Positions 4,303 through 18,000 of a stretch of DNA of 43,887 bases are shown in pieces. The DNA comes from a virus, in the IMG/VR virus record IMGVR_UViG_3300042308_000549, positions 1-43,887 of that record; one strand, given 5' to 3'. The translations under genes were made by a program, and so were the position numbers. Within the stretch, counting starts at the first letter, position 1, and every line of letters begins with the position of its first letter. The notes under the pieces are model-generated. The model did not search any database. It was given only the letters and a program-made list of their open reading frames with translations, and was not told where the DNA came from.

Positions 4303-4538
4303 CCTGTCCCGAATGCGGTAAAATAACATCAGTAGTTAATAGTAGGAAGGTTGATAAGACAGTAATGCGGAGGAGAGTTTGTGAGTGTGGATTCAGATTC
4401 ACAACCAACGAAGTCGTTGTTGTATTATCCAACCGGAACTACATAAAGAAAAAGGAAACAGAACCAAATGTTGTCTGGACTGGATCAGTCACAGAAGACA
4501 CTCCAGATTGGGCTAAAAAGATACTAAGCAACCTATGA
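4299..4538 (+). CDS. NrdR-like zinc-ribbon protein
   Basis: 79 residues. Residues 1-40 reproduce the zinc ribbon of NrdR: CPEC, VVNSR, RRRVCECGFRFTT, with Cys pairs at 3/6 and about 28/30. NrdR represses ribonucleotide reductase genes in bacteria, but there the ribbon is followed by an ATP-cone. Here only about 35 unrelated residues follow (ETEPNVVWTGSVTEDTPDW), so nucleotide sensing is absent. It may be a phage regulator or simply a DNA-binding ribbon. It sits in the operon before a glycosyltransferase, with 4-nt overlaps. Confidence 0.7.
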   Translation: MTCPECGKITSVVNSRKVDKTVMRRRVCECGFRFTTNEVVVVLSNRNYIKKKETEPNVVWTGSVTEDTPDWAKKILSNL

Positions 4539-5662
4539 GTATCGGAAACGATAAATTCAGATTCCATTGCCTTGGGCTTCCACATACAGTTAGTTCCAAG
4601 GAATTCAACGCCTGCGCTTACACCCAGAAGGTAGTTAAGTTCGGGAAGATGATGACCGAGCGCGGCCATGAAGTAATCCACTACGGGCATGAGGATAGTC
4701 AACTCCCATGCACGGAACACGTCACAGTATTAACCAACGACGACTTCAAGAAGAGCTATGGTTCCCATGACTGGAGGAAGACATTCTTTAAATTCAACAC
4801 GAATGACCATGCCTACCAGACGTTCTACAAGAATGCTATCGAAGAAGTAGGTAAGAGGAAACTCAAGCATGACTTCATCCTACCCTTCTGGGGTAGCGGA
4901 GTAAGACCGATCTGTGACGCACATCCAGACCTAATCACAGTCGAGCCGGGGATTGGATATGCTGGTGGACACTGGGCAAGGTGGAAGGTATTTGAATCCT
5001 ACGCAATCTACCATGCTTATTGCGGAATGCAGGCAGTAGGGAATTGCCGCCAAGATAACTATGAGGTAGTCATCCCAAACTACTTCGATAAAGAAGACTT
5101 CGACTTCTGTGATAAGAAAGAAGATTACTTCCTCTATCTTGGTAGGGTTTACTCTGGAAAAGGTGTAGATATCGCCATAGATGCCACTAAACGGGCAGGG
5201 GTTAAACTGGTCATCGCAGGCCAAAAAGAGGAAGGTTACAAATTACCAGACCATGTAGAGTATGTAGGATACGCTGACGTCCCTACTAGGAAGAGGCTCA
5301 TGTCGAAAGCTAAAGCATCCTTTGTTCCTAGCCAGTATGTAGAACCATTCGGGGGTGTCCAAGTAGAGAACCTACTATCTGGGACTCCAACGATTACCTC
5401 TGACTGGGGTAGCTTCACCGAGAACAACCTGCATGGGATAACAGGATTCCGCTGCCGCACGATGGGGGATTACGTAGAAGCCATTAACAGCATTGAGAGT
5501 ATCGAACCCTACGATTGCTGGGCGTTCGGTAATAACTTCATCCTAGAGAATGTAGCACCAATGTATGAAAAGTATTTCGCGGATGTAATGGATGTCTACA
5601 CCGGAGAAGGGTGGTATTCCAAATCAAACGGACTCCTAGCAAACTACAAAAAATACCTATGA
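4535..5662 (+). CDS. Glycosyltransferase, GT4-like (GT-B fold)
   Basis: 375 residues. The C-terminal half has the GT4 hallmarks: YLGRVYSGKGVDIAI (about 200), LVIAGQKEEG, then EPFGGVQVE (about 270), which is the E-x7-E sugar-nucleotide motif, followed by LLSGTPTITSDWGSF. The N-terminal half is the acceptor domain, with an HYGHE segment. Phage glycosyltransferases modify phage DNA, virion proteins or host surface glycans; the substrate here is not visible. The first codons coincide with a palindrome copy (4539-4554), which therefore encodes SIGNDK. It overlaps both neighbours by ATGA. Confidence 0.85.
   Translation: MSIGNDKFRFHCLGLPHTVSSKEFNACAYTQKVVKFGKMMTERGHEVIHYGHEDSQLPCTEHVTVLTNDDFKKSYGSHDWRKTFFKFNTNDHAYQTFYKNAIEEVGKRKLKHDFILPFWGSGVRPICDAHPDLITVEPGIGYAGGHWARWKVFESYAIYHAYCGMQAVGNCRQDNYEVVIPNYFDKEDFDFCDKKEDYFLYLGRVYSGKGVDIAIDATKRAGVKLVIAGQKEEGYKLPDHVEYVGYADVPTRKRLMSKAKASFVPSQYVEPFGGVQVENLLSGTPTITSDWGSFTENNLHGITGFRCRTMGDYVEAINSIESIEPYDCWAFGNNFILENVAPMYEKYFADVMDVYTGEGWYSKSNGLLANYKKYL
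4539..4554. repeat. Palindrome site 3 (GTATCGGAAACGATAA)
   Basis: One mismatch at the first base. It begins 4 nt after the A of the glycosyltransferase ATG (4535), so the palindrome occupies codons 2-7. Confidence 0.85.
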
Positions 5663-5985: not shown

Positions 5986-6488
5986 GTTGGGATGAATACG
6001 CTATGAGCATCGCCGAGGCGGTAGCTAAGAAGAGTAAAGACCCGTGGCAAAAAGTCGGCGCGGTGATCCTAAGAGAAGACAACTCCATAGCATCAGTAGG
6101 ATTCAACGGATTCCCTCAAGGCCAAGAAGAAGACTGGTCAGATAGAGAAGAGAGAAGGAAGTATGTCATCCACGCAGAACAGAACGCACTGAGGTATACC
6201 AACCCCGGCGAGGGAAAGACACTAGTATCCACCCTACTACCCTGTAGGGACTGCCTAAAGACCATAGCCGCCTATAAGATAAAGAGAGTCCTCTACAAAG
6301 ACATCTACAAGTCCGACCCAATAGCCCTAGAGATAGCAGAAAAAATGGGAGTCACAGTAATCAAATTTGAACCAGAACCCATATCAGCCTACTGGGATCA
6401 CAACACAAAACCATCCATGTTCATCGTAAAGCGCGGAGGTAAAGAAATCCACCGAGGAACATTCTCACAAGGAAGGAAGCTACTATGA
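5982..6488 (+). CDS. dCMP/CMP deaminase family enzyme
   Basis: 168 residues. The zinc-binding deaminase signature is complete: HAEQNAL (His and catalytic Glu) and PCRDC (two Cys ligands), with VGAVILRED and GFNGFPQG typical of deoxycytidylate deaminase. It would convert dCMP to dUMP for dTTP synthesis during phage replication. The C-terminal 40 residues (PEPISAYWDHNTKPSMFIV) go beyond the minimal fold. It overlaps both neighbours by 4 nt in the early operon. Substrate choice between dCMP and related cytidines is inferred. Confidence 0.9.
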   Translation: MSWDEYAMSIAEAVAKKSKDPWQKVGAVILREDNSIASVGFNGFPQGQEEDWSDREERRKYVIHAEQNALRYTNPGEGKTLVSTLLPCRDCLKTIAAYKIKRVLYKDIYKSDPIALEIAEKMGVTVIKFEPEPISAYWDHNTKPSMFIVKRGGKEIHRGTFSQGRKLL

Positions 6489-6568
6489 ACGACCAACTCC
6501 TAGCCATAGCACTAGCATGGGCAGTAGTCACAGCTTGCTTCGTTCTACACAACATCAATAGAGACTAA
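6485..6568 (+). CDS. Tiny hydrophobic peptide (27 aa)
   Basis: The ATG at 6485 overlaps the deaminase stop and TAA lies at 6566-6568. The peptide MNDQLLAIALAWAVVTACFV is one membrane helix with a short polar tail (LHNINRD). Coupling by ATGA supports translation, but such short frames can be chance. It ends the early operon. Confidence 0.5.
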   Translation: MNDQLLAIALAWAVVTACFVLHNINRD

Positions 6569-6581
6569 TTTGAGAGCAATA

Positions 6582-6661
6582 ATGTGGTATTGTGGCGGCT
6601 GGTCTTTAAGGGGCCAACTGGTCAGCAAGTGAACCATTCCCGTAACCACATAAAACGGGAA
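6582..6661 (+). promoter_or_regulatory. Possible pseudoknot leader
   Basis: The hairpin TTCCCGT/ACGGGAA (6637-6643, 6655-6661) has an 11-nt loop containing ACCACAT (6645-6651), which is exactly complementary to ATGTGGT at 6582-6588. This allows an H-type pseudoknot in the RNA. A 6-bp direct repeat CTGGTC lies between. The element is followed by a palindrome site and the start codon at 6685. It does not fold as a tRNA. Confidence 0.45.
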
Positions 6662-6667
6662 CTCTCA

Positions 6668-6683
6668 TTATCGGTAACGATAA
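6668..6683. repeat. Palindrome site 4 (TTATCGGTAACGATAA)
   Basis: Exact copy ending 1 nt before the ATG at 6685, occupying the position where a ribosome binding site would be. Confidence 0.9.
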
Positions 6684-6684
6684 C

Positions 6685-7230
6685 ATGAATACAAAAATCG
6701 GCGCACTGCCAACTCACAGATACATCTACATAGATAGCCAATACACCCACGAAAAACCAATCGGCCCGGTAGAAGCTATGTGGGTAGGGCTAACTAGTAT
6801 CCCATCCAGAGCATGGGGAATCAACGTCATCCTAAGAGACGGCGGCGCACTCTACAGAAACATACCTCCAAACGCAGTGAGATTCAAAGAAAAAGCCCTA
6901 GAAGGATGGAGAATAGAAGAAAGCCAACTCTGGGACTGCTACTCATATAACTTTACAATACTACAAAACCCCATCCTAAGAGGACTACCAGTAACAACCA
7001 AGATCAACCAAAACATCTACAAGGGAACCTACCTCTTCTCCACAGCCCACCTAAACGATGGCTGGTCAGATAGCCCAGACCAAGACAAAGAATTCATCTT
7101 CATAGAACTCGACAACGGAAGACTAACCATCCAACCCACAAACAAAGTAGCCTTCCAAGACAATAGCTACACCACCCCCATTATCCCCAAACTCAAACTC
7201 CAAGATACCATCTACTCTTGTGAGAAATAA
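6685..7230 (+). CDS. Conserved phage protein of unknown function
   Basis: 181 residues. The recognisable conserved parts are MWVGLTSIPSRAWGINVIL, ALYRNIPPNAVRF, WDCYSYNFTIL, YLFSTAHLNDGWSD and FIFIELDNGRLTIQPTNKV. I have seen this layout in phage genomes without a known function. No signal peptide or transmembrane segment is seen. The region is strongly A-rich on the coding strand. It has its own leader with a possible pseudoknot and a palindrome directly before the ATG, so it is probably regulated separately from the operon upstream. Confidence 0.75.
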   Translation: MNTKIGALPTHRYIYIDSQYTHEKPIGPVEAMWVGLTSIPSRAWGINVILRDGGALYRNIPPNAVRFKEKALEGWRIEESQLWDCYSYNFTILQNPILRGLPVTTKINQNIYKGTYLFSTAHLNDGWSDSPDQDKEFIFIELDNGRLTIQPTNKVAFQDNSYTTPIIPKLKLQDTIYSCEK

Positions 7231-7759
7231 AGGATGGTTAAGTAGCCAATAAACACAAGACAACTGATCACAGAAATCCATTACTCAGATTTCTAAAGGA
7301 TGGTTACATGATTCTATTAACAGAGGTCAGCGTAGCTGCATAGGACGAAAGAGGGAGAAAGAGGGAAATATGGTGTTTTTCTGGGGAGAGGGGTTTTCCG
7401 CATTTGGAGCTGCGCCAGTTGGGTGTCATGGGGCAGGGGGGCAGGCCGTCCCGCCTCCCTATAAAAAAGAGATTCCTTCCCGCCATGCGTGCGTGCCTGT
7501 GCTGTGCGCTGTGCTAATACCAGTGTCGTGCTGGTAGCGTGTGGCGCGTGTGCCATTGTTATAGTGTCACCGGATCGGCGAGCGTGTCGCATCATGTGGC
7601 TTGCCGGTAGCGTGTGAAGGGATCGTGCCGGCAGCGTGTCGCATTATGTCGGATCGTGTGACAATCGGGTTTGCGGTAGCTGATGAGATTGGCGGAACTG
7701 GTATTGCTGGCAAGTATCGCTTTGAGTGATTATTTGAATTTATCAATCGCTTTTTCCAG

Positions 7760-7816
7760 TCTCAATAATATTGGCGGATTCGGGTGTTTTCCCGAGTTTT
7801 GGGAGCCTTATTGAGA
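7760..7816. other. Nested inverted repeat
   Basis: The outer arms TCTCAATAA (7760-7768) and TTATTGAGA (7808-7816) are perfect complements. Inside lies a second perfect hairpin, TCGGG (7780-7784) with CCCGA (7791-7795). The arrangement would form a cruciform in DNA or a two-part stem-loop in RNA on either strand. No coding frame explains it. Confidence 0.5.
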
Positions 7817-8107
7817 ATGGCGCAAAGTGGCATCGCATGGCCTGATTTTTGGGCGGATCGGTGTTGCCAATAGTTGCGTGTTGATGGAATCAAGCGCACC
7901 ATCCTTGCGACACTAGGAGAGGGAATGAAAATAAATAAAAATAAATGTGGACAAGCGAGAGGAAAATGATATTGTTTGTCCCGTGATGTTCGCGGAAGGC
8001 CGTTGAATGCGGGTTTGCGGACAATTTCACAATCGCTCTTTGAAGAAAAAATAATTTCGCACGCTAGAAAACAAGTGTGCGGATACATAAGAAAAACCTA
8101 AACCATA

Positions 8108-8124
8108 TCCCGAATCATTCGGGA
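8108..8124. promoter_or_regulatory. Operator-like perfect dyad
   Basis: TCCCGAAT-C-ATTCGGGA is an 8-bp perfect inverted repeat around one base, 17 bp upstream of the ATG at 8142. The 1-nt centre is too tight for an RNA hairpin loop, so a protein-binding operator is more likely. No second copy was seen. Confidence 0.5.
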
Positions 8125-8141
8125 AAACCTAACAGACTAGA

Positions 8142-8354
8142 ATGAAAATAACACCACTAAAAAACCAAGACGGGGATCGGTTCTTGTCAGTAGATGGCGA
8201 GATCATGCCAATCGGAATCGCTGCCATTTGTTGCGACAGTCGCATCGCTGGTTTTGAGATTAAATGCACGGAATGCCGGACTCTTTATCCTGTGCGTGAA
8301 TTGAATGAGGGTGGCTATTGTGAAGCGTGCGTGAATGCTGACTTTGAGGAATAA
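8142..8354 (+). CDS. Small zinc-finger-like protein
   Basis: 70 residues with paired cysteines: ICCDS, then CTEC (about 44-47) and CEAC (about 62-65) spaced 15 residues apart, typical of a zinc ribbon. The N-terminal part (GDRFLSVDGEIMPIG) is a short beta region. It probably binds nucleic acid or protein, but the family is not identified. It begins the second plus-strand block, behind an operator-like dyad and an A-rich leader. Confidence 0.65.
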   Translation: MKITPLKNQDGDRFLSVDGEIMPIGIAAICCDSRIAGFEIKCTECRTLYPVRELNEGGYCEACVNADFEE

Positions 8355-8358
8355 TCCC

Positions 8359-8487
8359 ATGAACACTATTAACCACATCCTGTCCCTTCCCGTGGATCAA
8401 TCGACAATAGACTTTGCTTTGATCTGCGCCGCCATGGTCGCCGTTCGCATCATGCTTTCCGTCATCTTTCACAAGCTGTCCCGTTAA
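8359..8487 (+). CDS. Small membrane protein (42 aa)
   Basis: ATG at 8359, 4 nt after the previous stop; TAA at 8485-8487. After a polar start (MNTINHILSLPVDQ) it has one hydrophobic helix, FALICAAMVAVRIMLSVIF, and a basic tail. Position in a close series of small genes supports it. Function unknown. Confidence 0.55.
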   Translation: MNTINHILSLPVDQSTIDFALICAAMVAVRIMLSVIFHKLSR

Positions 8488-8491
8488 TCAC

Positions 8492-8638
8492 ATGAAAAAC
8501 TCTGCCCAACTCTACGCCTTAAAATGCAAAGCTGCTTCTCTCCATGTCCGCGTTCTCTCTAATAAAGGGGATTCTGTGTTGCGTGGGAAACTGGCCGCGC
8601 TTGTCTCTAAAATTAATCAACTCGAATCTGCTCGCTGA
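8492..8638 (+). CDS. Small basic hypothetical protein (48 aa)
   Basis: ATG at 8492, 4 nt after the previous stop; TGA at 8636-8638. The product is basic and helical (NSAQLYALKCKAASLHVRV, LRGKLAALVSKINQLESAR). No family is recognised. The close spacing to both neighbours is the main support. Confidence 0.5.
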   Translation: MKNSAQLYALKCKAASLHVRVLSNKGDSVLRGKLAALVSKINQLESAR

Positions 8639-8642
8639 TATT

Positions 8643-8834
8643 ATGAACCTTATATTTGAATACGCTATCAAAAACAAGTCCGGCTTGTTCTACAACGGGA
8701 ACGCCTATGGTGATTCCCGCGACTGGTCATCTATTCCCATGGATGTTTACACTTATACGGAAGCGGGAGCATACCGCAAAATTTCCCTTTTCCCTGCTAT
8801 GTTCGCAGGTTGTGAAGTTGTCCGATTTATTTGA
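8643..8834 (+). CDS. Small hypothetical protein (63 aa)
   Basis: The start at 8643 (MNLIFEYAIKNKSGLFYNG) is chosen because it is 4 nt after the previous stop; a longer in-frame start at 8544 would overlap that gene out of frame. The sequence YNGNAYGDSRDWSSIPMDVY looks like a small beta-rich protein. No membrane segment or known motif is seen. Confidence 0.55.
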   Translation: MNLIFEYAIKNKSGLFYNGNAYGDSRDWSSIPMDVYTYTEAGAYRKISLFPAMFAGCEVVRFI

Positions 8835-8838
8835 TCCA

Positions 8839-8997
8839 ATGAAAATCCTCTCCTATTCTCTCGCCTTCGCCTCCCTCGCTTCTCTAGCTATGGGCTGCGC
8901 GTTCCTGCTATTCTCCGCGCCGTTCCCGGCTTTGCTTTGCTTCTGTGGCTTTGCATTGTTTGGCTTGGCCGCCGCGAAATTAAATCCTGAAATCTGA
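8839..8997 (+). CDS. Small membrane protein with two hydrophobic segments
   Basis: 52 residues from the ATG at 8839. Hydrophobic stretches cover about 5-27 (YSLAFASLASLAMGCAFLLF) and 29-46 (FPALLCFCGFALFGLAAA), giving a helical hairpin. It could be a holin-like or inner-membrane accessory peptide, but the real lysis cassette appears to be at 37.7-38.8 kb. It follows the previous stop by 4 nt. Confidence 0.55.
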   Translation: MKILSYSLAFASLASLAMGCAFLLFSAPFPALLCFCGFALFGLAAAKLNPEI

Positions 8998-9043
8998 ACC
9001 TTTGTTCCCCTCAGAACATCAAACCATAAACCTATAAAACAAC

Positions 9044-9319
9044 ATGAATCGTATATCCAAAAAAATCCTTCAATCCCGCGTCGAAACCATTAATTGCGTT
9101 CTTGGAATGCCTGACAGCCCATACACTCGCACGGAAGATAAATTTGTTGCCAACATTGGCAATTTCCATTTGTCCCAAGCATACGGGGGATATTGCGTTC
9201 ACCGTATGTGCAACGAAAATGGCGGGGTTTCCACTCCTATATGGGCGGGTCACATTCCAGCACGGGAAGCCTACGAGCGCATTTGCGCCTTCATCGCCGG
9301 ACTCACCTTTACCAAGTAA
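9044..9319 (+). CDS. Conserved small phage protein, unknown function
   Basis: 91 residues: MNRISKKILQSRVETINCV, GNFHLSQAYGGYCVHRMCN and SREAYERICAF-like helices. The layout (basic N-terminal helix, short beta pair with GGYCVHR, C-terminal helix with IAGL) resembles a small protein often seen in phage accessory regions. Function unknown. Its leader (ACCTATAAAACAAC) has no Shine-Dalgarno sequence. Confidence 0.7.
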   Translation: MNRISKKILQSRVETINCVLGMPDSPYTRTEDKFVANIGNFHLSQAYGGYCVHRMCNENGGVSTPIWAGHIPAREAYERICAFIAGLTFTK

Positions 9320-9323
9320 AAAT

Positions 9324-9530
9324 ATGTCGCGCTATAATTCCGACCCCTATTTCACTACCGCAAAATTCAACTCCACTTGCCCGGAAACGGGCTTGCCAAT
9401 TAAGAAAGGCGATAAAATAGCCTACTTTCCACGAGAGAGAAAAGCCTATCACGAAAACAGCAAGGGCGGCGATCAAATCCGCGAAATGCAATTCAATAAA
9501 TGCTTCGAGATGGCCGACGCTAATTGGTAA
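9324..9530 (+). CDS. Small phage protein (68 aa), unknown function
   Basis: Start at 9324 (MSRYNSDPYFTTAKFNSTC). The segments STCPETGLPIKKGDKIAYFPRERKAYH form a short zinc-ribbon-like or beta hairpin unit (a CPETG turn with a single Cys pair later), similar to small phage proteins of the ...C..tG..I.kGd... type. It follows the previous stop by 4 nt. Directly at its stop codon is the 12-mer TAAACACTCCAC, which recurs at the stop codon at 10198-10200. Confidence 0.65.
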   Translation: MSRYNSDPYFTTAKFNSTCPETGLPIKKGDKIAYFPRERKAYHENSKGGDQIREMQFNKCFEMADANW

Positions 9531-9659
9531 ACACTCCACACAAAGCGGGGTTTCGTTCTATCCGTCTCCCTGCTTTGCTCTATTCGCCTCTGTAGCGCGT
9601 TTTCTTTCCATGTGCCTAGTCATTCCCCTCCTTTCCACTCCCGCGCATTCCTTGGGGCG

Positions 9660-9675
9660 TGATCGTTTCCGATAA
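9660..9675. repeat. Palindrome site 5 (TGATCGTTTCCGATAA)
   Basis: One mismatch at the second base. It lies in the 206-bp gap 9531-9736, which also holds a weak AAAGC/GCTTT hairpin (about 9543-9575) and two copies of TTCCCTCCACA (9676-9686, 9693-9703). The site is 61 bp before the ATG at 9737. Confidence 0.85.
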
Positions 9676-9736
9676 TTCCCTCCACAAGATTTTTCCCTCC
9701 ACAGAACACAAAACCAAAAACCAGACAAACCAAAAA

Positions 9737-10030
9737 ATGAATAATACACTCCACACTCCCGCACCTTGGAAGCATGATCCAACTTGGGGCATCATCAAAC
9801 ACGGCAAAAGTGAGATTTGCGCCCTCCACAGCGGGAATCTTGCCAATGCAAACCTCATAGCCTCCGCACCGGATTTGCTTTCCGCCGTGGATTCATGCCT
9901 TGAAATAATGCTGCGAGCAATAGGTGAACGGCTTCCCATCAATCGCGGGACAGAATGCGAGGAAACAGATTGGCAAACAGCAATCCGCAAAGCTAAAGAA
10001 GCCATCCGCAAGGCGAAGGGGGAAGCATGA
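9737..10030 (+). CDS. Conserved phage protein (HTPAPW / APDLL type), unknown function
   Basis: 97 residues. The pattern HTPAPWKHD near the start, then NLANANLIASAPDLL, is that of a very common small phage and prophage protein family of unknown function. The C-terminal helix is charged (TAIRKAKEAIRKAKGEA). It starts after an A/C-rich leader without a Shine-Dalgarno sequence and overlaps the next gene by ATGA. Confidence 0.8.
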   Translation: MNNTLHTPAPWKHDPTWGIIKHGKSEICALHSGNLANANLIASAPDLLSAVDSCLEIMLRAIGERLPINRGTECEETDWQTAIRKAKEAIRKAKGEA

Positions 10031-10200
10031 GCGCGGAGTTTCATTCCATGTCCAAGCGCATCAAAGCGGCTTCCACACTCGCCGACCTTGTGAAGCTGGA
10101 AACTTCACTCGATAGATGCTGGAATGCAGGTTGCTTTTCCAAGGGCGAGTTTGTCGTTCTGGATTGCATGATTATCCAGCGGAAAATGCGCTTCGATTAA
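10027..10200 (+). CDS. Small hypothetical protein (57 aa)
   Basis: The ATG at 10027 overlaps the previous stop. The product is helical and amphipathic (SKRIKAASTLADLVKLETSL, GEFVVLDCMIIQRKMRFD). No family is recognised. It ends in TAA within the repeated 12-mer TAAACACTCCAC (10198-10209), and the convergent minus-strand gene ends 20 bp further on. Confidence 0.6.
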   Translation: MSAEFHSMSKRIKAASTLADLVKLETSLDRCWNAGCFSKGEFVVLDCMIIQRKMRFD

Positions 10201-10220
10201 ACACTCCACGGGGGCGCGAG

Positions 10221-10814
10221 TTAGTCCGATCCTTCCCCGCCTTCCGTTTCCGATTCCTCCACATTTTCGCCATGAGTTTCCACTTTGACATATTCAGCGG
10301 ATACAATTTCCCCTTCCACGGCTTTTCGCGGCCCTTCCACATGAAGCGAAATCATTGCGTTTACGCTTAACCCTTTCCTGTCGTGCATATTATTCTCATC
10401 CAGTCCCAACGCACGGGTCGCCATCTTTTCGTATTGCGCGAGAACATCGAGACGCGCCGACTGGTCTTTAATGTTTCCCGTTTTGTATCTCCCTTCCACT
10501 TGCGCTCGTTCCTCCGCAATTTGCTTGAGCATAAACTGATAGTGTGCAGATGTTTCTGCCGCCATCAGGTCTTCCATCTTCGGCGCAACGATATTCGCTA
10601 CGCTCTCCCTCAGTTTTTTCCTTTTGTCGATCCACTTCCCTTTCACCATGCAATTCTTGAGGTAGAATCGGCTCATCTTGCTAAACTCAGGCAATTTCAG
10701 AATGTCCGACATCTCCGCCCCTCCCATGAATAGTTGCTCGATCCTGTCCATGTCCCATTTCTTTCGCCTTCCACGCCCTAGCGTTTCGCTGTTCAATTCC
10801 GGTGTTTTGTTCAT
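10221..10814 (-). CDS. HTH protein, possibly a small-terminase-like subunit
   Basis: 197 residues. Residues 15-65 (WDMDRIEQLFMGGAEMSDIL, FSKMSRFYLKNCMVKGKWIDKRKKL) look like the N-terminal helix-turn-helix of phage small terminase subunits, in which a specificity helix is followed by a W-x-x-R/K-K-R segment. A long helical middle (LMAAETSAHYQFMLKQIAEE) and an acidic tail (EESETEGGEGSD) follow, which also fits TerS. If correct it would recognise pac/cos DNA for packaging. It is oddly alone on the minus strand between plus-strand genes, with no large subunit nearby, so a transcription regulator is an alternative. Confidence 0.55.
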   Translation of the reverse strand: MNKTPELNSETLGRGRRKKWDMDRIEQLFMGGAEMSDILKLPEFSKMSRFYLKNCMVKGKWIDKRKKLRESVANIVAPKMEDLMAAETSAHYQFMLKQIAEERAQVEGRYKTGNIKDQSARLDVLAQYEKMATRALGLDENNMHDRKGLSVNAMISLHVEGPRKAVEGEIVSAEYVKVETHGENVEESETEGGEGSD

Positions 10815-10821
10815 ACTTTAC

Positions 10822-10849
10822 TATTCACAAAACCAATCCACTTTGTCAA
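10822..10849 (-). promoter_or_regulatory. Candidate promoter of the minus-strand HTH gene
   Basis: On the minus strand a perfect TTGACA (10849-10844) is followed after 16-17 bp by TGAATA/GAATAG, close to an extended -10 (TGTGAATAGT). The start codon is at 10814, so the transcript would have almost no leader. The same short gap holds the leader of the divergent plus-strand gene at 10887. Confidence 0.5.
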
Positions 10850-10886
10850 CAATTTCCCTCCACAACACAACCAACAAACCAAACCA

Positions 10887-11033
10887 ATGAGTGCAATCGA
10901 GAAAAACCAACCAACTTGCCTTCCACCGGAGGCTTATATCAGAATCATTCGCAATTGCGAAAACAATGTGCCGAAGTTCCGTTCTTCGGTTTATCCTAAA
11001 ACTCAACCCAACCCAACGAAAAAAACGAAATGA
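10887..11033 (+). CDS. Small basic hypothetical protein (48 aa)
   Basis: ATG at 10887 after the A/C-rich leader AACAAACCAAACCA; TGA at 11031-11033. The sequence LPPEAYIRIIRNCENNVPKF is followed by a Pro/Lys-rich tail (KTQPNPTKKTK). It overlaps the following gene by ATGA, which supports translation. No family is recognised. Confidence 0.5.
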   Translation: MSAIEKNQPTCLPPEAYIRIIRNCENNVPKFRSSVYPKTQPNPTKKTK

Positions 11034-11203
11034 ACACAACACAAAGCAACTGGACAAAACACACACGCAAAAAGGGAATGACCTCCCGCGAGAAAAGACT
11101 ACTGACCGCATTGCAGGACATAGCCGCAATGGTGGTCAGTCCTAACGACACACGGGCCGATATTCTGAATCGCGCTCTTAAAGCAATCGGAAAGGATGAA
11201 TAA
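11030..11203 (+). CDS. Small hypothetical protein (57 aa)
   Basis: ATG at 11030 overlaps the previous stop; TAA at 11201-11203. The product is basic at the start (KHTRKKGMTSREKRLLTALQ) and then helical (DIAAMVVSPNDTRADILNRAL). The general pattern resembles short phage proteins with a single helical domain. Function unknown. Confidence 0.55.
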   Translation: MNTTQSNWTKHTRKKGMTSREKRLLTALQDIAAMVVSPNDTRADILNRALKAIGKDE

Positions 11204-11204
11204 A

Positions 11205-11570
11205 ATGAAAATCAACGGAATAAATTACAAGACAACTCCAAGGGAAACCAGACTTTTGGAGACTGCTTTGAATGACTGTATCAACATCAAAATTGTTCCC
11301 AACGAAGGGTTTGAAGGATTGATTGCAAGCCATGATTGGTTGGGTAACGATTATATTTTTGCATCCATATATTTAAATCCAAAAAATGGAATGTGGGACT
11401 TGTTCAAGGTAATTGATAATTTTGATGATGAGAAAAAAATATCTTCATCAAGAGATCATTTCCAAGCAATAAATAGTTTAAGAAAGTTACAAGACGAAAT
11501 ATGGGCAGATGCTTACAGGAATCCTGTAATGGATTCTTCTGAAGGCGTAATGCTAAGGCAAACAAACTGA
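11205..11570 (+). CDS. Hypothetical protein (121 aa)
   Basis: Start chosen at 11205 (MKINGINYKTTPRETRLLET), 9 nt after GGAAAGG (11189-11195), one of the few good Shine-Dalgarno matches here; an in-frame ATG at 11196 is possible. The protein is mixed alpha/beta (FEGLIASHDWLGNDYIFASI, GMWDLFKVIDNF). The gene is more AT-rich than its neighbours. No family is recognised. Confidence 0.65.
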   Translation: MKINGINYKTTPRETRLLETALNDCINIKIVPNEGFEGLIASHDWLGNDYIFASIYLNPKNGMWDLFKVIDNFDDEKKISSSRDHFQAINSLRKLQDEIWADAYRNPVMDSSEGVMLRQTN

Positions 11571-11611
11571 TTTAGTTCCCCAAGGACATAACATAAACCA
11601 ATAATAAATAA

Positions 11612-11872
11612 ATGAGTATCATACAACAACTCGCAGAAATTGAGGCGAAAGCACTCAAGTATAAACAACAGGACACCTTGTATATTTACACTCGGCATCC
11701 ACGAGCAGGGGAATCAGTTCCACAATTTGAACTCCGCATTGATGGTGACGACCAAGAGTATGTCCGTGCTTTCATGGACTTTCTGAAAGCCAATGGACTT
11801 TGCGCCAGGGTTTCTTCAGCAATCGAATCCCACAACAGACAAAACTTCACTTACCTTCCACGCGAAAAATGA
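11612..11872 (+). CDS. Hypothetical protein (86 aa)
   Basis: The product has MSIIQQLAEIEAKALKYKQQ, a helical start, and VPQFELRIDGDDQEYVRAFM, a beta-alpha unit. No known motif is seen. It follows an SD-less leader (ATAACATAAACCAATAAT) and overlaps the next gene by ATGA. Confidence 0.6.
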   Translation: MSIIQQLAEIEAKALKYKQQDTLYIYTRHPRAGESVPQFELRIDGDDQEYVRAFMDFLKANGLCARVSSAIESHNRQNFTYLPREK

Positions 11873-12243
11873 AAACACAAAGCGAAGCAATCGACGAAAT
11901 GTATAATGAACTACATTCCCTATACGGCAAAGTATTAGGGCCAATGTGGTTGGAAACCAAAGACAAAACATGGGCGTTCGACATTGAGAAATACGAAGGC
12001 GGCGAGAAATACGAAGGAGCAAATCCTGTGCAGGACATTATCCGCTCCTCTGACGGCATGGTGGAAATCATGGTCGAGCAAACCAATTCAATCTGCCGCA
12101 GAACTGCATGGAAATATATGGTCTATGCCGTTTACAATGATGATATTGGCGAGATGTATGAATACAATTGGAGGAACGCCGCCGCCAATAAGTTTATGGA
12201 GATTCAACTTTCAATGAAATTTGCAGTTGCAAACAACAAATGA
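11869..12243 (+). CDS. Hypothetical protein (124 aa)
   Basis: Start at 11869 (MKTQSEAIDEMYNELHSLYG), overlapping the previous TGA; an in-frame ATG at 11800 lies inside that gene. The protein contains an imperfect duplication (KYEGGEKYEG) and a Trp/Tyr-rich C-terminal half (WKYMVYAVYNDDIGEMYEYN). Function unknown. It overlaps the helicase gene by 4 nt. Confidence 0.65.
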   Translation: MKTQSEAIDEMYNELHSLYGKVLGPMWLETKDKTWAFDIEKYEGGEKYEGANPVQDIIRSSDGMVEIMVEQTNSICRRTAWKYMVYAVYNDDIGEMYEYNWRNAAANKFMEIQLSMKFAVANNK

Positions 12244-13862
12244 ACATCCACGATCTCATGGCAACAGTTGAGTGGTCGCATCCCATTCAGCTAAACACTA
12301 AACGCGGGGTCAGACTTCTAAAGAAGGCTCCAATCACCGATCAGTTCTGGAAAATCTACCGAGAGGATAAAGAGTTGTTCAAAGAGCAGATGAGTAAAGC
12401 AGGGATCAACCTTGGCAAGTTCCGCGAGGAGTGGGGCTTGTCTTGGTGGTCTGACGATCAGCTCAAGTTCAAGCAGATAATCGGTAACGATAACCAAGTC
12501 GAAGTGGTTGCCGAGCTTGATGTTGTTCCTCTCCTACACCCCGAAGGACTCTTTGAGTATCAGCAGACCTCAGTCCAGATGGGTGTTGCATCCATGAACA
12601 AATATAATCGTGTCTTGCTCGGTCACTCCACAGGTGTAGGAAAAACATTCTGCGCCTTGGGCATCGCCAGAGAGTTAGGCAAACGCATTGCGGTAGTCTG
12701 CCCGAAGCCGATCACCACAGACTGGTATCGTGCCGCGAAGATGATGGGCGTCGAAGTCTTCGAGATATGCGGCTGGGAATGGGCTAAGACAGGCAAGAGT
12801 CAGTTAGGTAGATGGACAGATGATAACAAGAAGACATTCCGGTTCATGTTACCCGAAGATGTTCTGCTAGTGTTCGATGAAGTCCACAGGGGGAAAGGTG
12901 AAGCTACCCAAAATGCTTTCCTAGTCCGAGATTCGGTTATCCAGAACATCCCTGCTATTGCTCTGTCTGCTACCATCGCCGACGATCCTACAAAGTTGTG
13001 GGCAATCGGGCAGTTCCTTGGTCTGCACCAAGGCGGGAAGGATTACTTCCGATTCCTCAGTCAGAACGGATGCCGAAAGACAAGGTTCGGAATGCAGTTC
13101 ACCGGAGGCAATGCAGTTCTGAAACGACTACATAGCCGAATCTACCCCGAAAAGGGTAATCGGTTGAGGCATTCTGACCTTGGCGATGCGTTCCCTGAAA
13201 CGCTAATCAAAGCCAAGGCTTTCGACATGGACAACGCAAAGAAGATTGCCAATGAGTATGATGATCTTTGCAACCGAATCGAAGAGCTACGGATGCAGGA
13301 GAACTTCTCGGCCAATGTCCTAGCAGAACAGACTAGAGCCAGACAAAGGATCGAGATGTTGAAAGCTCCCGCTGTAGCGGCGATGGCCCGTGATCTAATT
13401 GAAGAAGGGAACTCGGTGTTCATCGCAGTCAACTACACCGAGACCCGTGAGTGGTTGATGGAGGAGTTGGATACAGATTGCGCTATCTACGGAGGACAGA
13501 ATGAAATTGAGCGGAGAGGTAAGATTGATTCCTTTCAAGCGGATCGTTCCCGAATCATCATCGGAATCATCCAAGCGAGTAGGGAAGGTCTGAACCTCCA
13601 CGATCTCAACGGCAATCACTCACGGGTTGCGCTAATAATGCCTTCGCCTAGCGTTTTCGATCTCAAGCAGGTTCTTGGACGAGTCCATAGGGCTGGAGGT
13701 AAGTCGAAGTCGATCCAGTATCTCATCTACGCGGCGGGCGTTCCTATCGAGGAATCCATCTGCGAAAAGCTAGATGAAAAGCTAAAGCGTATGGATACAC
13801 TCAACGATGGGGAGATAGATGGGACTATCTCACTAGCTCCAAAAAGTGAAGAATTGATTTAA
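12240..13862 (+). CDS. SF2 helicase, SNF2/DEAD-like
   Basis: 540 residues. The motifs run in family order: Walker A GHSTGVGKT (about 128-136), DEVH (about 212), SAT (ALSATI), and in the second RecA domain SREGLNLHDL and QVLGRVHRAGG (motif VI, about 480). This is an ATP-driven DNA or RNA translocase of superfamily 2 similar to phage SNF2-like helicases, likely acting in replication, recombination or transcription switching. The N-terminal 100 residues (FREEWGLSWWSDDQLKFKQI) are not a known domain. A palindrome copy lies at 12478 in this N-terminal part. The gene ends the plus-strand block and runs into a terminator. Confidence 0.85.
   Translation: MNIHDLMATVEWSHPIQLNTKRGVRLLKKAPITDQFWKIYREDKELFKEQMSKAGINLGKFREEWGLSWWSDDQLKFKQIIGNDNQVEVVAELDVVPLLHPEGLFEYQQTSVQMGVASMNKYNRVLLGHSTGVGKTFCALGIARELGKRIAVVCPKPITTDWYRAAKMMGVEVFEICGWEWAKTGKSQLGRWTDDNKKTFRFMLPEDVLLVFDEVHRGKGEATQNAFLVRDSVIQNIPAIALSATIADDPTKLWAIGQFLGLHQGGKDYFRFLSQNGCRKTRFGMQFTGGNAVLKRLHSRIYPEKGNRLRHSDLGDAFPETLIKAKAFDMDNAKKIANEYDDLCNRIEELRMQENFSANVLAEQTRARQRIEMLKAPAVAAMARDLIEEGNSVFIAVNYTETREWLMEELDTDCAIYGGQNEIERRGKIDSFQADRSRIIIGIIQASREGLNLHDLNGNHSRVALIMPSPSVFDLKQVLGRVHRAGGKSKSIQYLIYAAGVPIEESICEKLDEKLKRMDTLNDGEIDGTISLAPKSEELI
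12478..12493. repeat. Palindrome site 6 (TAATCGGTAACGATAA)
   Basis: One mismatch at the second base. It lies inside the helicase gene, encoding part of KQIIGNDN. Confidence 0.85.
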
Positions 13863-13876
13863 TCCTAAAAAGCAAG

Positions 13877-13914
13877 AAGCCCACCAAGGAGAAATCCAAG
13901 GTGGGCTTTTTTGT
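13877..13914. terminator. Bidirectional intrinsic terminator
   Basis: AAGCCCACC (13877-13885) pairs with GGTGGGCTT (13900-13908) around a 14-nt loop. TTTTTTG follows on the plus strand and an A-run precedes, giving a T-run on the minus strand. It lies between the convergent ends of the helicase gene (13862) and the minus-strand operon (13927), so it can stop both. Confidence 0.88.
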
Positions 13915-13926
13915 TGTCTTGATACT

Positions 13927-14205
13927 TTAGCTGATGATCCGAGAGACTTCTTCCTTCTCTTCAGTATCGAATCGTTTGCGGAACTGGCTCTCCTTGTAGT
14001 AGAGGAATGCAAGCTCAAGGTATTTGATTGCTTCAAACCCTTCACCCTTGCGGGACTCGGATCGGACAACCATCATGCTTGCTGTATGCAGGAGGCTCGC
14101 CATAGCGTGGACTCGTTCGTTTAGTTTCTCGTCCTCGCATTTGATGAAGCTGAAAGCCTCAAGAATTGTTTTGGAGGTTTCGTTTTGTGGTGTTTGTTCT
14201 GACAT
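13927..14205 (-). CDS. Hypothetical helical protein (92 aa)
   Basis: Predicted all-helical: ILEAFSFIKCEDEKLNERVH, AMASLLHTASMMVVRSESR, EAIKYLELAFLYYKESQF and a charged end. The pattern resembles small phage proteins sometimes called Acb2/Tad1-type by their size, but no diagnostic residue is seen and I do not assign it. It is the last gene of the minus-strand operon. Confidence 0.65.
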   Translation of the reverse strand: MSEQTPQNETSKTILEAFSFIKCEDEKLNERVHAMASLLHTASMMVVRSESRKGEGFEAIKYLELAFLYYKESQFRKRFDTEEKEEVSRIIS

Positions 14206-14207
14206 AA

Positions 14208-14618
14208 TTATTTTTTTGGTATATATTTTTGGCTTGCGTATTTATTGAATGCTTTTTTAAGCCTTACCGCTTGATTGTAGAATGAATCCACAATTTCTTT
14301 TGTGGATTCAGGCATGAAATCCTCCCAAGGAGAACCGCTTAGTTCGTCTTTTATGAATTGATCTACAATCTTTTTTACAGTAATTTCAATAGGTGGATAT
14401 TCGTAACCTTTGGGATGCTTAACTTCAATGATTGCTATACTGCCACCACCCAAAAGTCTAACAGTCATGTCCTCCATCATTTTGTCTATGGCTAATGCTA
14501 TCTCTAAAGAAGCAAGTTCTTTGTCTCCTTGCAATAATTCTAAAATCGCATCTTGGACGCAACAAGATAGTGCTTCCTTAACAAATGGATTTTTTAGGGC
14601 TTTAGTTGTTCTTTTCAT
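14208..14618 (-). CDS. Hypothetical protein (136 aa)
   Basis: Start at 14618 (MKRTTKALKNPFVKEALSC), where the ATG shares one base with the upstream TAA (TAATG) and AAGGA lies at Shine-Dalgarno distance; an in-frame ATG further upstream lies inside that gene. The middle has LLGGGSIAIIEVKHPKGYEY, a beta region, between two helical parts. The gene is distinctly AT-rich compared with the genes upstream, which may mark separate acquisition. No family is recognised. Confidence 0.65.
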   Translation of the reverse strand: MKRTTKALKNPFVKEALSCCVQDAILELLQGDKELASLEIALAIDKMMEDMTVRLLGGGSIAIIEVKHPKGYEYPPIEITVKKIVDQFIKDELSGSPWEDFMPESTKEIVDSFYNQAVRLKKAFNKYASQKYIPKK

Positions 14619-15636: not shown

Positions 15637-16455
15637 TCAGTATGGGATGTCGTCTACTTCTTCAGTAGGCGCATCGAGGTTAAGGTCTTCAGCGGCTTTC
15701 TCCACGCACTTGGCGAATGGAGTAGTGAACCCCTTCTCCAAGTAGTATTCATAGAGTTTAGTGAGGGCAGGCTTGCCAATAGCGGCGAGCTTCTTGCCCT
15801 TCTGCGAGCCAGATGGGACGATGGCAGAAGCCCAATCAGATGGGTCTGGTTCAACTACCTTTGGTTCCTCTACCTTCGGCTCTTCTACCTTGTGCCTAGA
15901 GTAGCGGATGCCCTTGCGGTTAGCTTCGATGAAGACCGACGAGACATAGGAGCGAAGGGTTTCTTCATCCTCCACATCTTTGTAGCTATGGCGCACCAAG
16001 CTATTGATGTAGCGGTGCATCTCTACGATTTCATCAATCGCCTTCTCTGGATTATCGGTAACGATACTCTTGGGTGTAGCAGAAGATGCTACACGGGCAG
16101 GCTCCTCGCTAGGCTGGTCGAACTCAATCTTTCCAGTAGCTGTGACTTTAATTATGTCACGATCTACCTTGCCGTTCTTACCTTCGTAGGACTCATGCTC
16201 CAAGGATACTCCGGTCAGACCATGCTTTCCACGGACTGAGGACAAGGTAACTACATTACCTTTGATAGATTGTTCCTGTGTGTTGTTGAAGAACTTGAGT
16301 CCGTAGGTATTGCCGTCGATCTCAATGTCTCCACCTTGGATCACAAACTCACCCTTGGGGCCAGTAAATGTCTTAGGTTCCCACAATTTAGTGACCTTGC
16401 CAGTCACTCGTTTGATGATGTCTTTCTGTTCGATTCCGTCTAGTTGGTTACTCAT
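15637..16455 (-). CDS. SSB-like OB-fold protein
   Basis: 272 residues. Residues 12-110 look like one OB fold (IIKRVTGKVTKLWEPKTFTG, GDIEIDGNTYGLKFF, GNVVTLSSVRGKHG). The extreme C-terminus is EEVDDIPY, very close to the acidic DDIPF tip with which bacterial SSBs recruit partner proteins. Between them lies a helical module (EIVEMHRYINSLVRHSY) and a Pro/Glu-rich linker (VEEPKVEEPKVVEP). It therefore probably coats single-stranded DNA and recruits replication proteins. It follows the nuclease gene by an 8-nt overlap. A palindrome copy lies in the linker-coding part at 16052. Confidence 0.65.
   Translation of the reverse strand: MSNQLDGIEQKDIIKRVTGKVTKLWEPKTFTGPKGEFVIQGGDIEIDGNTYGLKFFNNTQEQSIKGNVVTLSSVRGKHGLTGVSLEHESYEGKNGKVDRDIIKVTATGKIEFDQPSEEPARVASSATPKSIVTDNPEKAIDEIVEMHRYINSLVRHSYKDVEDEETLRSYVSSVFIEANRKGIRYSRHKVEEPKVEEPKVVEPDPSDWASAIVPSGSQKGKKLAAIGKPALTKLYEYYLEKGFTTPFAKCVEKAAEDLNLDAPTEEVDDIPY
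16052..16067. repeat. Palindrome site 7 (TTATCGGTAACGATAC)
   Basis: One mismatch at the last base; it lies inside the SSB-like gene. Confidence 0.85.
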
Positions 16456-17317
16456 TAGTTTTATAGGTTGATTTGTAGTAGTGGCAGAAGGGTGCTACTG
16501 AGCAATAACGCTCGCAACGGATATCCCCTCCGCTTCGTTTCTCTATGCTGTGCTTCGGCCCGTAGGTAGGTAGCAGGTTCTCTGCTTCCTCCAAGGTCTC
16601 GCACACTTTGGCTGCTCGTTTGTTCCCGTCCTTCTTGATCGCAAAGGTATCTGGTTTGGCCCAGCGTTCCTTTGCATTACAAGCAGGGATGGTATCGTCT
16701 GGCATTTCAGCCGCCGCTTGGTGCAGTTTGATCCGCTCCGCTGCGTAGGCTATACACTCTTCGTTATCCCACAATGGTATGTCTACAATATGCACTGCAC
16801 ACTGAGGATACTCTTTGTCAAACTCGGCCTTGCTTGCCTGCCAGTCACGGAGGATGGCGACGATCTGACCTTTATTGACTTCGTAGCCATAGCTTCTCCA
16901 GAGCATGGCATTCAGATTGATCTGCGCTTCCCACTCAGACTTGCCGCCAAGAAGGAAGGAGAACACGGATGTTACCTTGAAGTCAGAGATTACTTTATTG
17001 CCAGTCTCGTAGAGGTCAGTCTGTCCGGTCAGCGTCCAGTCGTTAATCTGCAAGTAAAGACGCTTCTCAGTCAACTCTTCCTCTCCTCCAGCTAGCTCAA
17101 GAACCTTATGCACCGACTGACCGAGCAATGCCCACACCCTATCGGATGCGTCTTCCACGATCTCCTCGGAGTAGCGTTTCTTGAGTTGGTTAATCTTCGG
17201 TGGCCCGATTAATGTAGTCACCGAGATGTCTGCTTTCTTCGTTCCTGCCATATACCCATCGTGCGCTAACGCCCGATACATTGGTGCTGGGAGCGAGTAT
17301 CGATTTGTTATTTGCAT
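16448..17317 (-). CDS. RecB/Cas4-like PD-(D/E)XK nuclease
   Basis: 289 residues from the ATG at 17317 (MQITNRYSLPAP). The motif series of RecB-family nucleases is present: LGQSVH with His 70, TGQTDLYE with Asp 101, ISDFKVTS (D-x-K at 112-114) and AQINLNAML (Gln 132). A C-terminal Cys cluster (CERYCSVAPFC) recalls the iron-sulfur site of Cas4/AddB-like enzymes, though the matching N-terminal Cys is not seen. It would be a phage recombination exonuclease. An in-frame extension to 17407 lies inside the homing endonuclease gene and is rejected. AAGGAG about 10 nt upstream is a good ribosome site. Confidence 0.8.
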   Translation of the reverse strand: MQITNRYSLPAPMYRALAHDGYMAGTKKADISVTTLIGPPKINQLKKRYSEEIVEDASDRVWALLGQSVHKVLELAGGEEELTEKRLYLQINDWTLTGQTDLYETGNKVISDFKVTSVFSFLLGGKSEWEAQINLNAMLWRSYGYEVNKGQIVAILRDWQASKAEFDKEYPQCAVHIVDIPLWDNEECIAYAAERIKLHQAAAEMPDDTIPACNAKERWAKPDTFAIKKDGNKRAAKVCETLEEAENLLPTYGPKHSIEKRSGGDIRCERYCSVAPFCHYYKSTYKTNE

Positions 17318-18000
17318 TTGTTTGCTCTCCTTGTTTCCCAAGCTCTTTTGATAGCTTGTGATCTTTTTATTTTTGCTTCTTCTGTTTGTGCTTTTTCTGA
17401 TTGCCAATATTTTTTTACTCTATCTGAAAATGCTTTTCTTCCTTCTTCGCTTTCTCTGAAAGCTCTATTTCTATCTGCCTGCATTTTTCTTTTTTCTTCA
17501 GAAGAATAAGCGGATTTTATACTTTCTGAATGTTGTTTTCTTTTTTCTTCATTCAATTCACTCCATCTTTTTGTATGAACTTCTGATAATTTCTTTTTTA
17601 AATCTGGAGTTATTTGAAGTTTTCTTATAGCGCACATTTTTAATCTTGATTGATCATTTGACCAAAAATCTTTGGATGTTTTTGAAAACTTTTTTCTACT
17701 TTCTTCGTTATGTCTATAACCTGAAACGCCATCTCCTCCATCTGTGAAATTTGCTAAAAGATTACCGTTTTCTCTGTATGTCTTAATTAATTCTTTTTCG
17801 TGTTCAAAGGCTTTCTCCTCTGAATCCCATAAAAAAATTATCATGACTTTGTAACCATGCTTATTTGCGATTTTATGCCACAAATTATTTCTGCAATATT
17901 TAGAGTATGCTCGTTTACCCCTTCCTTTCCCAACATAGAAAACTTCAGAGGTGTCATTTCGCAGATGAATGTATGTGTAGAATTTTTTAACACTTTCCAT
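17308..18000 (-). CDS. GIY-YIG homing endonuclease with NUMOD3-like repeats
   Basis: 230 residues. The N-terminal GIY-YIG nuclease has FYTYIHLRND, FYVGKGRGKRAYSK (YVG half of the motif plus the catalytic Arg region), HEKELIKTY with the metal-binding Glu, and NFTDGGDG. The rest is a run of short helices of the type GYRHNEESRKKFSKTSKDFW, NEEKRKQHSESIKSAY, EEGRKAFSDRVKKYW, resembling NUMOD3 DNA-binding repeats. It is a free-standing mobile endonuclease. The gene is strikingly AT-rich within a more balanced operon, ends by overlapping the nuclease start by 10 nt, and supplies that gene's ribosome site. Confidence 0.88.
   Translation of the reverse strand: MESVKKFYTYIHLRNDTSEVFYVGKGRGKRAYSKYCRNNLWHKIANKHGYKVMIIFLWDSEEKAFEHEKELIKTYRENGNLLANFTDGGDGVSGYRHNEESRKKFSKTSKDFWSNDQSRLKMCAIRKLQITPDLKKKLSEVHTKRWSELNEEKRKQHSESIKSAYSSEEKRKMQADRNRAFRESEEGRKAFSDRVKKYWQSEKAQTEEAKIKRSQAIKRAWETRRANKCK

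Follow-up and report, generated by a model that had tools for sequence, protein, structure and literature searches.

Positions 7231–8141 of the viral record IMGVR_UViG_3300042308_000549 are a real control region without genes, whose position is kept in many related phages. The whole IMG/VR record, 43,887 bp, is called the window here. The right-hand part of the region, block B, is probably a leader that acts in cis and brings about antitermination through boxA, with the layout of a bacterial ribosomal RNA (rRNA) operon leader, as judged from comparison of related sequences. Positions 7948–8083 would comprise a promoter and the 5′ leader RNA of a rightward operon that starts at 8142. The transcript would open with hairpin 1 (~7983), with a boxA-like element within a few nucleotides (nt) and then hairpin 2. 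A separate conserved element, block A (7375–7478), lies farther upstream. Neither feature had been named in the initial annotation. The parts of block B are as follows.

7948–8083, plus strand: block B, promoter and leader
7948..7975, plus strand: sigma-70-like promoter TGGACA-16 nt-TATTGT, which in the window agrees with the consensus at 9 of 12 bases
7983..8030, plus strand: hairpin 1, at the presumed 5′ end of the transcript, recognized by fold z and covariation
8035..8043, plus strand: boxA-like word GCTCTTTGA, whose pattern recurs in the leaders of relatives
8056..8083, plus strand: hairpin 2, which folds in the window and has weaker comparative support
8142..8354, plus strand: first open reading frame (ORF) behind the leader, 70 amino acids (aa), with CxxC-type motifs

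Promoter and probable leader RNA of block B

Relatives were gathered from IMG/VR through the protein of gene 6685–7230 (61 loci) and through a helicase alignment (48 loci, on contigs partly shared with the former set). The helicase alignment gives no relative in the genome contigs collection, and a megablast search with 6600–8800 gives no match in the phages collection. When the gene-free region is compared with the relatives by blastn, as the initial annotation had proposed, short blocks and no gene are recovered. Two blocks stay in place, ~7375–7478 (A) and ~7970–8062 (B), and the DNA between them is mostly unalignable, with the closest relatives aligning more fully across the region. An alignment of the window with 24 loci gives the same conservation profile. 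The distance from block A to the leader is 485–730 nt (median 565, n = 31, duplicates included). The earlier statement that no convincing ORF is present holds as well, since the ORFs of at least 50 aa in 7231–8141 reach only 55–108 aa, one on the plus strand (7370–7537) and four on the minus strand.

Model R1 of the leader matches 31 of 51 sequences searched (the window and 50 of 110 loci), 29 of them distinct; 18 of 60 sources match with E below 1e-13. In the 29 distinct leaders, the window included, the best promoter has on average 9.9 of 12 consensus bases, compared with 8.0 for shuffled upstream DNA, and 22 of the leaders have a spacer of 16 nt. Hairpin 1 begins 7 nt after the end of the −10 box in 21 leaders and 6 nt after it in five, the exceptions being L022 (9), L076 (29), and L008 (30). 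Because the −10 box lies 6–7 nt before hairpin 1 in 26 of the 29 leaders, the transcript would open with the hairpin, and the promoter places the transcription start at ~7983.

The fold z for 7983–8090 is -3.69, and four leaders folded singly give values from -3.00 to -4.05. In the R1 alignment, which is fitted to the model and thus favors structure, 82.8% of the cells of hairpin 1 are paired, compared with 32.5–48.9% when the 3′ partners are slid by 1–3 columns and 73.3% in shuffles, and both sides change in 11 of 17 pairs compared with 7.4 in shuffles. The count of further pair types (29) is not above that in shuffles (27.7). In an unfitted consensus of 17 sequences, both sides change in six of 13 pairs. 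The fourth pair of the closing helix is A-U (13), G-C (7), C-G (5), or unpaired (4). Frequent G-U pairs indicate that the leader RNA is read from the plus strand. Covariation thus argues for hairpin 1 as a conserved RNA fold. Of the functions suggested in the initial annotation, a regulatory RNA locus agrees with the right-hand part of the region only, where this covarying RNA lies behind a promoter, a part to which the annotation had not pointed.

The boxA-like word follows the pattern G[CA]TCTTTG[AGC] in 24 of the 29 distinct leaders but in only 64 of 5800 shuffled leaders (1.1%); G[ACT]TCTTTGA is found in 21 of the 29. The gamma-proteobacterial boxA consensus is given as GYTCTTTAANA in an excerpt of PMC5725501. 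Bacterial rRNA leaders were taken from the family of a Verrucomicrobia metagenome-assembled genome (MAG). A 16S match is present in 19 of 60 genomes, full-length in 16, and 13 loci with at least 300 nt upstream are usable (L122, L126, and L130 are too short). The pattern G[ACT]TC[TC]TTNACA occurs in nine of these 13 leaders against 0.03 expected, a figure flattered by the pattern having been written after those leaders were read. The −10 form TAGTCT is common to one rRNA promoter (L125) and phages L009 and L021, which is an observation only.

The boxA-like word is also present in a second phage group. The leader occurs once each in 13 of 17 whole phage records, and the four records without an R1 match (L009, L024, L105, L108) belong to this second group. 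Behind block A, its members have TTGAC-type promoters, hairpins of unrelated sequence ~5–7 nt past the −10 box, and a boxA-like word. A script that allows the word up to two substitutions finds the layout in 11 of 20 loci, with nine distinct hairpins among the 11, and fires in 13 of 3300 shuffles (300 for each of the 11 regions). The word is GATCTCTGACA or GATCTGTGACA in eight of the 11 loci. Among the 20 loci, the script finds no layout in L024, L054, L056, L057, and L058, nor in L099, L100, L103, and L106, which are without the block A anchor; a similar arrangement is seen by eye in L024. Since a hairpin and then boxA stand directly behind a promoter in both groups, whose hairpins are unrelated, the fixed part would be the boxA word.

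When E up to 0.1 is accepted for each genome, R1 matches three times in the 286 genomes searched from the class, fewer than chance allows. A possible host copy of the layout lies at L152:8288–8480 (Verrucomicrobia genome G280), on a chromosomal contig upstream of a gene for a secreted-looking protein, where a promoter, a hairpin, CAACAAATTGCTCTTTGA, a second hairpin, and a terminator-like stem are seen by eye (L150/L152). Its fold z is -1.86, it has no Rfam match, and model R2, built with the L152 sequence included, finds only L152 itself in 40 relatives and only itself in 387 genomes of the phylum. It is a single unconfirmed case, statistically unproven.

From these features, we infer the following course of transcription. 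While the leader emerges from RNA polymerase, its boxA would be bound by host NusB-S10, which, with NusA, NusG, and possibly SuhB, would make the polymerase termination-resistant, and this polymerase would read through the operon of small genes. In the downstream DNA, C minus G on the plus strand is +0.01 to +0.15 in windows over 8230–11230, an excess for which the minus-strand gene 10221–10814 accounts in part; in the relatives, the mean skew is -0.05 to -0.14 at 750–3750 nt. Rho favors C-rich, G-poor RNA, so that a Nus-type shield over such an operon is plausible. The rut sites are called G-poor in an excerpt of PMC5725501.

Several points weigh against this reading. A mechanical scan of 6400–14300 lists 15 promoter-like sites, compared with 11.3 expected, so that the 9 of 12 promoter of the window is unremarkable by itself, and a 10 of 12 promoter-like site lies inside the leader. 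The boxA is a short word, and five of the 29 leaders, L004 and L016 included, depart from the pattern. In hairpin 2, 68.8% of cells are paired and both sides change in three of 12 pairs, which is weak support; this alignment holds 19 sequences, namely 18 phage sequences and the host candidate L152, and leaves out the hairpin 2 type of the window itself. Apart from the flattered count, the rRNA pattern is absent from four of the 13 rRNA leaders (L121, L123, L129, L131), three loci with partial 16S (L137–L139) were left out of the count, and boxA in these leaders is, by eye, not directly behind a hairpin as it is in the phages. No boxC or leader-trailer helix turned up in the phage leader, no systematic search for an E. 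coli-type boxC having been made. Furthermore, boxA can also repress, as at suhB (PMC5725501, excerpt).

The assignment of the host belongs to the same side of the balance. The only two confirmed relatives of DnaB in species genomes are both in Verrucomicrobia MAGs (35% and 32% identity), and among 749 phage records the first-ranked DnaB is that of Akkermansia phage Chambord (27.8%). Contrarily, the relatives of gene 6685 are from Synechococcus, Prochlorococcus, or other cyanophages in 90 of 107 records, and the glycosyltransferase at 4535–5662 is up to 74% identical to those of cyanophages (Synechococcus phage S-CAM7 and kin). Since cyanophages dominate the relatives of these two accessory genes, the host is uncertain; it possibly belongs to Verrucomicrobiota, toward which we lean, with cyanobacteria also in play. 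The glycosyltransferase is far closer to cyanophages than the other phage genes compared, and its high identity is probably due to recent gene exchange in water.

The main rival is a repressive boxA leader or, more broadly, a leader that lowers expression, whether as a boxA-dependent repressor like that of E. coli suhB, an attenuator, or a 5′ untranslated region sensing a ligand or protein through hairpin 1. We consider this unlikely. The strong covariation of hairpin 1 is what would be expected of a binding site, and the leader directly precedes a gene, but the two phage groups share the boxA-like word and have wholly different hairpins. In addition, no intrinsic-terminator-like site is listed on the plus strand of 7983–8142, and Rfam gives no covariance-model match for 7231–8160 at E up to 1. 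It is less probable still that there is no antitermination, the hairpin serving only to protect the mRNA at its 5′ end and the boxA-like word to bind ribosomes or S1. The start of the hairpin at the presumed first nucleotide would fit such protection, as would the phage gene starts, which are by eye mostly without an obvious Shine-Dalgarno sequence. The word is nevertheless kept although it lies ~100 nt before the first start codon.

Block A and the repeats between the blocks

Besides block B, the region contains the following features.

7375..7478, strand unassigned: block A, G-rich, GTTTTT(A/C)T....GAGGGGT ... AGAGATTCCTT, conserved in place
7536..7639, plus strand: four copies of AGCGTGT, not conserved, within a rapidly changing tract rich in G+T
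7756..7820: nested inverted repeat CCAGTCTCAATAA ... TTATTGAGAATGG, resembling a hairpin or an operator, shared with near relatives and a single distant phage

Block A occurs once in the window. Its loose pattern is matched by 40 distinct sequences, including that of the distant L056, and more diverged forms ending in AGAGATTCCTT are present in L054, L057, L097, L098, and L105. Just before it (~7362–7380 and relatives), AAAA-type and TTTTT runs flank about three variable bases (GGC, ACC, ACG, TGG, and others).

A structured RNA is not a satisfactory explanation of block A. Compensating helices are apparent by eye, but matched halves pair no better than shuffled ones in 39 sequences (plus-strand half-pairing test: P2, z -0.24, p 0.40; P1, z +1.32, p 0.92). 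RNAalifold gives three pairs, none with changes on both sides, and the mean single-sequence fold z of 32 sequences is -0.64 on the plus strand and -0.02 on the minus strand, with a few values below -2. An end-to-end pairing of 9–13 of 13 bases at free offset was without a control and is not used. Single-base insertions and deletions between relatives, seen by eye, speak against a coding function, and a G-quadruplex is rejected as several relatives have C-runs in place of the second G-runs. Block A is a conserved DNA element separate from the leader and, as our best guess, probably a protein-binding DNA site.

Packaging is the leading candidate function for block A, and for block A only, though it is a tentative one to which we give limited credence. 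Block A would then be the packaging site of the phage, bound by the helix-turn-helix-like protein of gene 10221–10814 on the minus strand. The single copy in the window and conservation as sequence rather than structure are in line with this idea. The order of block A and the relative of 10221–10814 (28% identity) is kept in the distant L056, where the two are ~3 kb apart, even though the relative of gene 6685 lies ~3.6 kb upstream there. The predicted model of the protein combines a long helical part with short helices at the N terminus, and among viral models two weak matches (E 0.33 and 0.67) carry the name terminase small subunit. The protein is, however, without a family, phage-record, solved-sequence, or significant fold match, and the confidence of the model is low (mean predicted local distance difference test score 63.8), so that the name terminase is our own reading from the look of a low-confidence model. 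The gene itself is an isolated leftward one of 197 aa amid rightward ORFs, kept to ~28% in distant relatives.

A second replication origin had been among the initial suggestions, along with iteron-like AGCGTGT repeats, and is improbable. AGCGTGT does stand at 7536, 7581, 7609, and 7633, as stated there, and once more at 34750. Over the whole window the five copies are unremarkable (3.94 expected). Locally, four or more copies arise in none of 3000 dinucleotide shuffles of the region, so that chance does not account for the cluster of this word, though at least one 7-mer of whatever sequence reaches four copies in 1.7% (7488–7700) or 3.7% (7231–8141) of 1500 shuffles. The AGCGTGT interval is among the least conserved of the 25-sequence alignment. 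In 31 homologous intervals, which include the duplicates L080/L081 and L090/L110, the window has four copies, L004 and L005 have two each, and the other 28 have none; many of the intervals repeat a different word, peculiar to each. Conserved iterons are therefore rejected for this word.

In favor of an origin stands an iteron-like array of CATA(A/C)GAC(A/T)T. Of the 29 sequences listed, 18 have one to four copies immediately before block A (L006, L007, L009–L012, L014–L018, L021–L026, L049), and the array is seen by eye in L056 as well. In this list, L001 is the window itself, and L017, L020, and L027 are near-duplicates. Neither the window nor its nearest relatives have the array, however, and conserved direct repeats matched to an initiator were not found in the region. 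In near relatives, the gene before dnaB (392–1303 in the window) has N-terminal parts of at least five types that look unrelated, which suggests a swapping replication-initiator cassette; the array does not follow the type of these candidate initiator ORFs, and block A stays while they change. The GC skew, an analysis that had also been proposed, changes from plus upstream to minus downstream in an average of 19 of 19 loci, the opposite of a bidirectional origin, gene content also shaping the skew.

The view of the region as relic DNA of deleted genes, also raised initially, is the least probable of all, since blocks A and B stay in place in tens of relatives and the gap length is kept (485–730 nt in 31 sequences), even though the tract between them is poorly conserved and the place behind block A is taken in several relatives by a gene of at least ~240 aa.

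The nested inverted repeat, annotated earlier as 7760–7816, is real and extends over 7756–7820, its outer arms (7756–7768 and 7808–7820) being complementary at 12 of 13 positions. Among ten sequences tried, it is present in seven (the window, L002, L003, L004, L005, L008, and L056) and not found in L054, L057, and L058. The dyad TCCCGAATCATTCGGGA at 8108–8124 likewise exists. An exact direct repeat, TAAAGGATGGTTA, stands at 7228–7240 and 7294–7306, downstream of gene 6685–7230, and is single or double in several relatives.

Genome context

The whole related phage records (n = 17) are 49–61 kb long, so that the 43,887-bp record may be incomplete. The main genes around the region are as follows.

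392–1303, rightward half: O-like initiator
1522–2793, rightward half: DnaB-like helicase
further genes of the rightward half: RusA-like resolvase, glycosyltransferase (4535–5662), dCMP deaminase
12240–13862, rightward half: helicase
leftward half: collagen-like tail-fibre genes

No tRNA genes and no Rfam families at gathering score were found in the window. The first ORF behind the leader, 8142–8354, has relatives in L007, L012, and L013 (and L027) at 71–78%, and no PHROG or Pfam match. The annotations of gene 6685–7230 conflict, since its PHROG family is labelled ferredoxin and its relatives are deposited as PurM, ferredoxin, or hypothetical. A homing-endonuclease-like gene on the minus strand (17308–18000) overlaps the start of the exonuclease ORF 16448–17407. 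The palindrome TTATCGG(N)AACGATAA is found in about nine places, near 193, 1969, 6668, 18507, 24165, 29352, 32327, 37711, and 42553, sometimes just 5′ of genes (6668 before 6685; 42553 before 42547 on the minus strand), and may be operator-, promoter-, or terminator-like.

Comparison with known antitermination systems

To our knowledge, it is mainly in coliphages that antitermination by phages has been worked out in detail. The uncultured viruses described here may borrow the rRNA antitermination machinery of their host to read a gene block. We put forward, with some reserve, a fuller picture in which a widespread uncultured phage group, perhaps of Verrucomicrobiota, might open an accessory operon with a self-sufficient antitermination signal of rRNA type. 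A transcript-initial hairpin and a host-type boxA would make up the signal, the hairpin sequence would be free to change, no N protein would be needed, and the operon would be given a processive, Rho-resistant polymerase normally reserved for rRNA, with block A as a second conserved DNA element alongside. If this is true, RNA by itself can take over the machinery of rRNA antitermination, and the hairpin, swapped wholesale between phage groups while boxA is kept, offers a ready test of the minimal boxA site. The leader also serves as a once-per-genome landmark for the phage group and points to block A. In the openly licensed PMC literature, no paper titled for such a leader surfaced, which is no proof of its absence from print. 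The novelty lies in the layout and the phage group, not in the principle.

Among known systems, HK022 put RNA is a two-stem RNA that acts directly on polymerase without Nus factors. The putL site is described as two stem-loops of ~70 nt in all just downstream of PL (PMC9378689, excerpt). The phage leader resembles it in having two stem-loops near a phage promoter, a likeness of layout. Unlike in put, a boxA-like word separates the two hairpins, which stand ~25 nt apart; PMC9378689 nowhere mentions boxA.

The lambda nut sites consist of boxA, boxB, and boxC, and N binds boxB, according to excerpts of PMC10250234 and PMC11893012. In both, boxA stands in a phage leader and a hairpin comes after it. 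The covarying hairpin precedes boxA in our case, however, and the hairpin behind boxA varies in loop length and sequence, unlike the conserved loop of boxB. No family name of an N-like arginine-rich protein appears among the scanned genes of the window, and no systematic search for one was made. The suhB leader of E. coli shares the presence of boxA outside rRNA (PMC5725501, excerpt); there boxA represses, and a 5′-terminal hairpin is not among the suhB features described in that excerpt.

The closest likeness is to the rRNA-operon leader, with its boxB, boxA, and boxC and its Nus factors, SuhB, and S4. In the E. coli rRNA operons, promoter P2 is closely followed by boxB, boxA, and boxC in this order, and of these it is boxA that is both necessary and sufficient to recruit the factors (both from excerpts of PMC10250234). 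The phage leader likewise has a promoter, a hairpin, and boxA at the start of the transcript. It differs in the second hairpin behind boxA and in preceding small phage genes, not rRNA. Since no rRNA operon lies behind it, the phage leader is not a member of the rRNA-leader class, but it may work like one.
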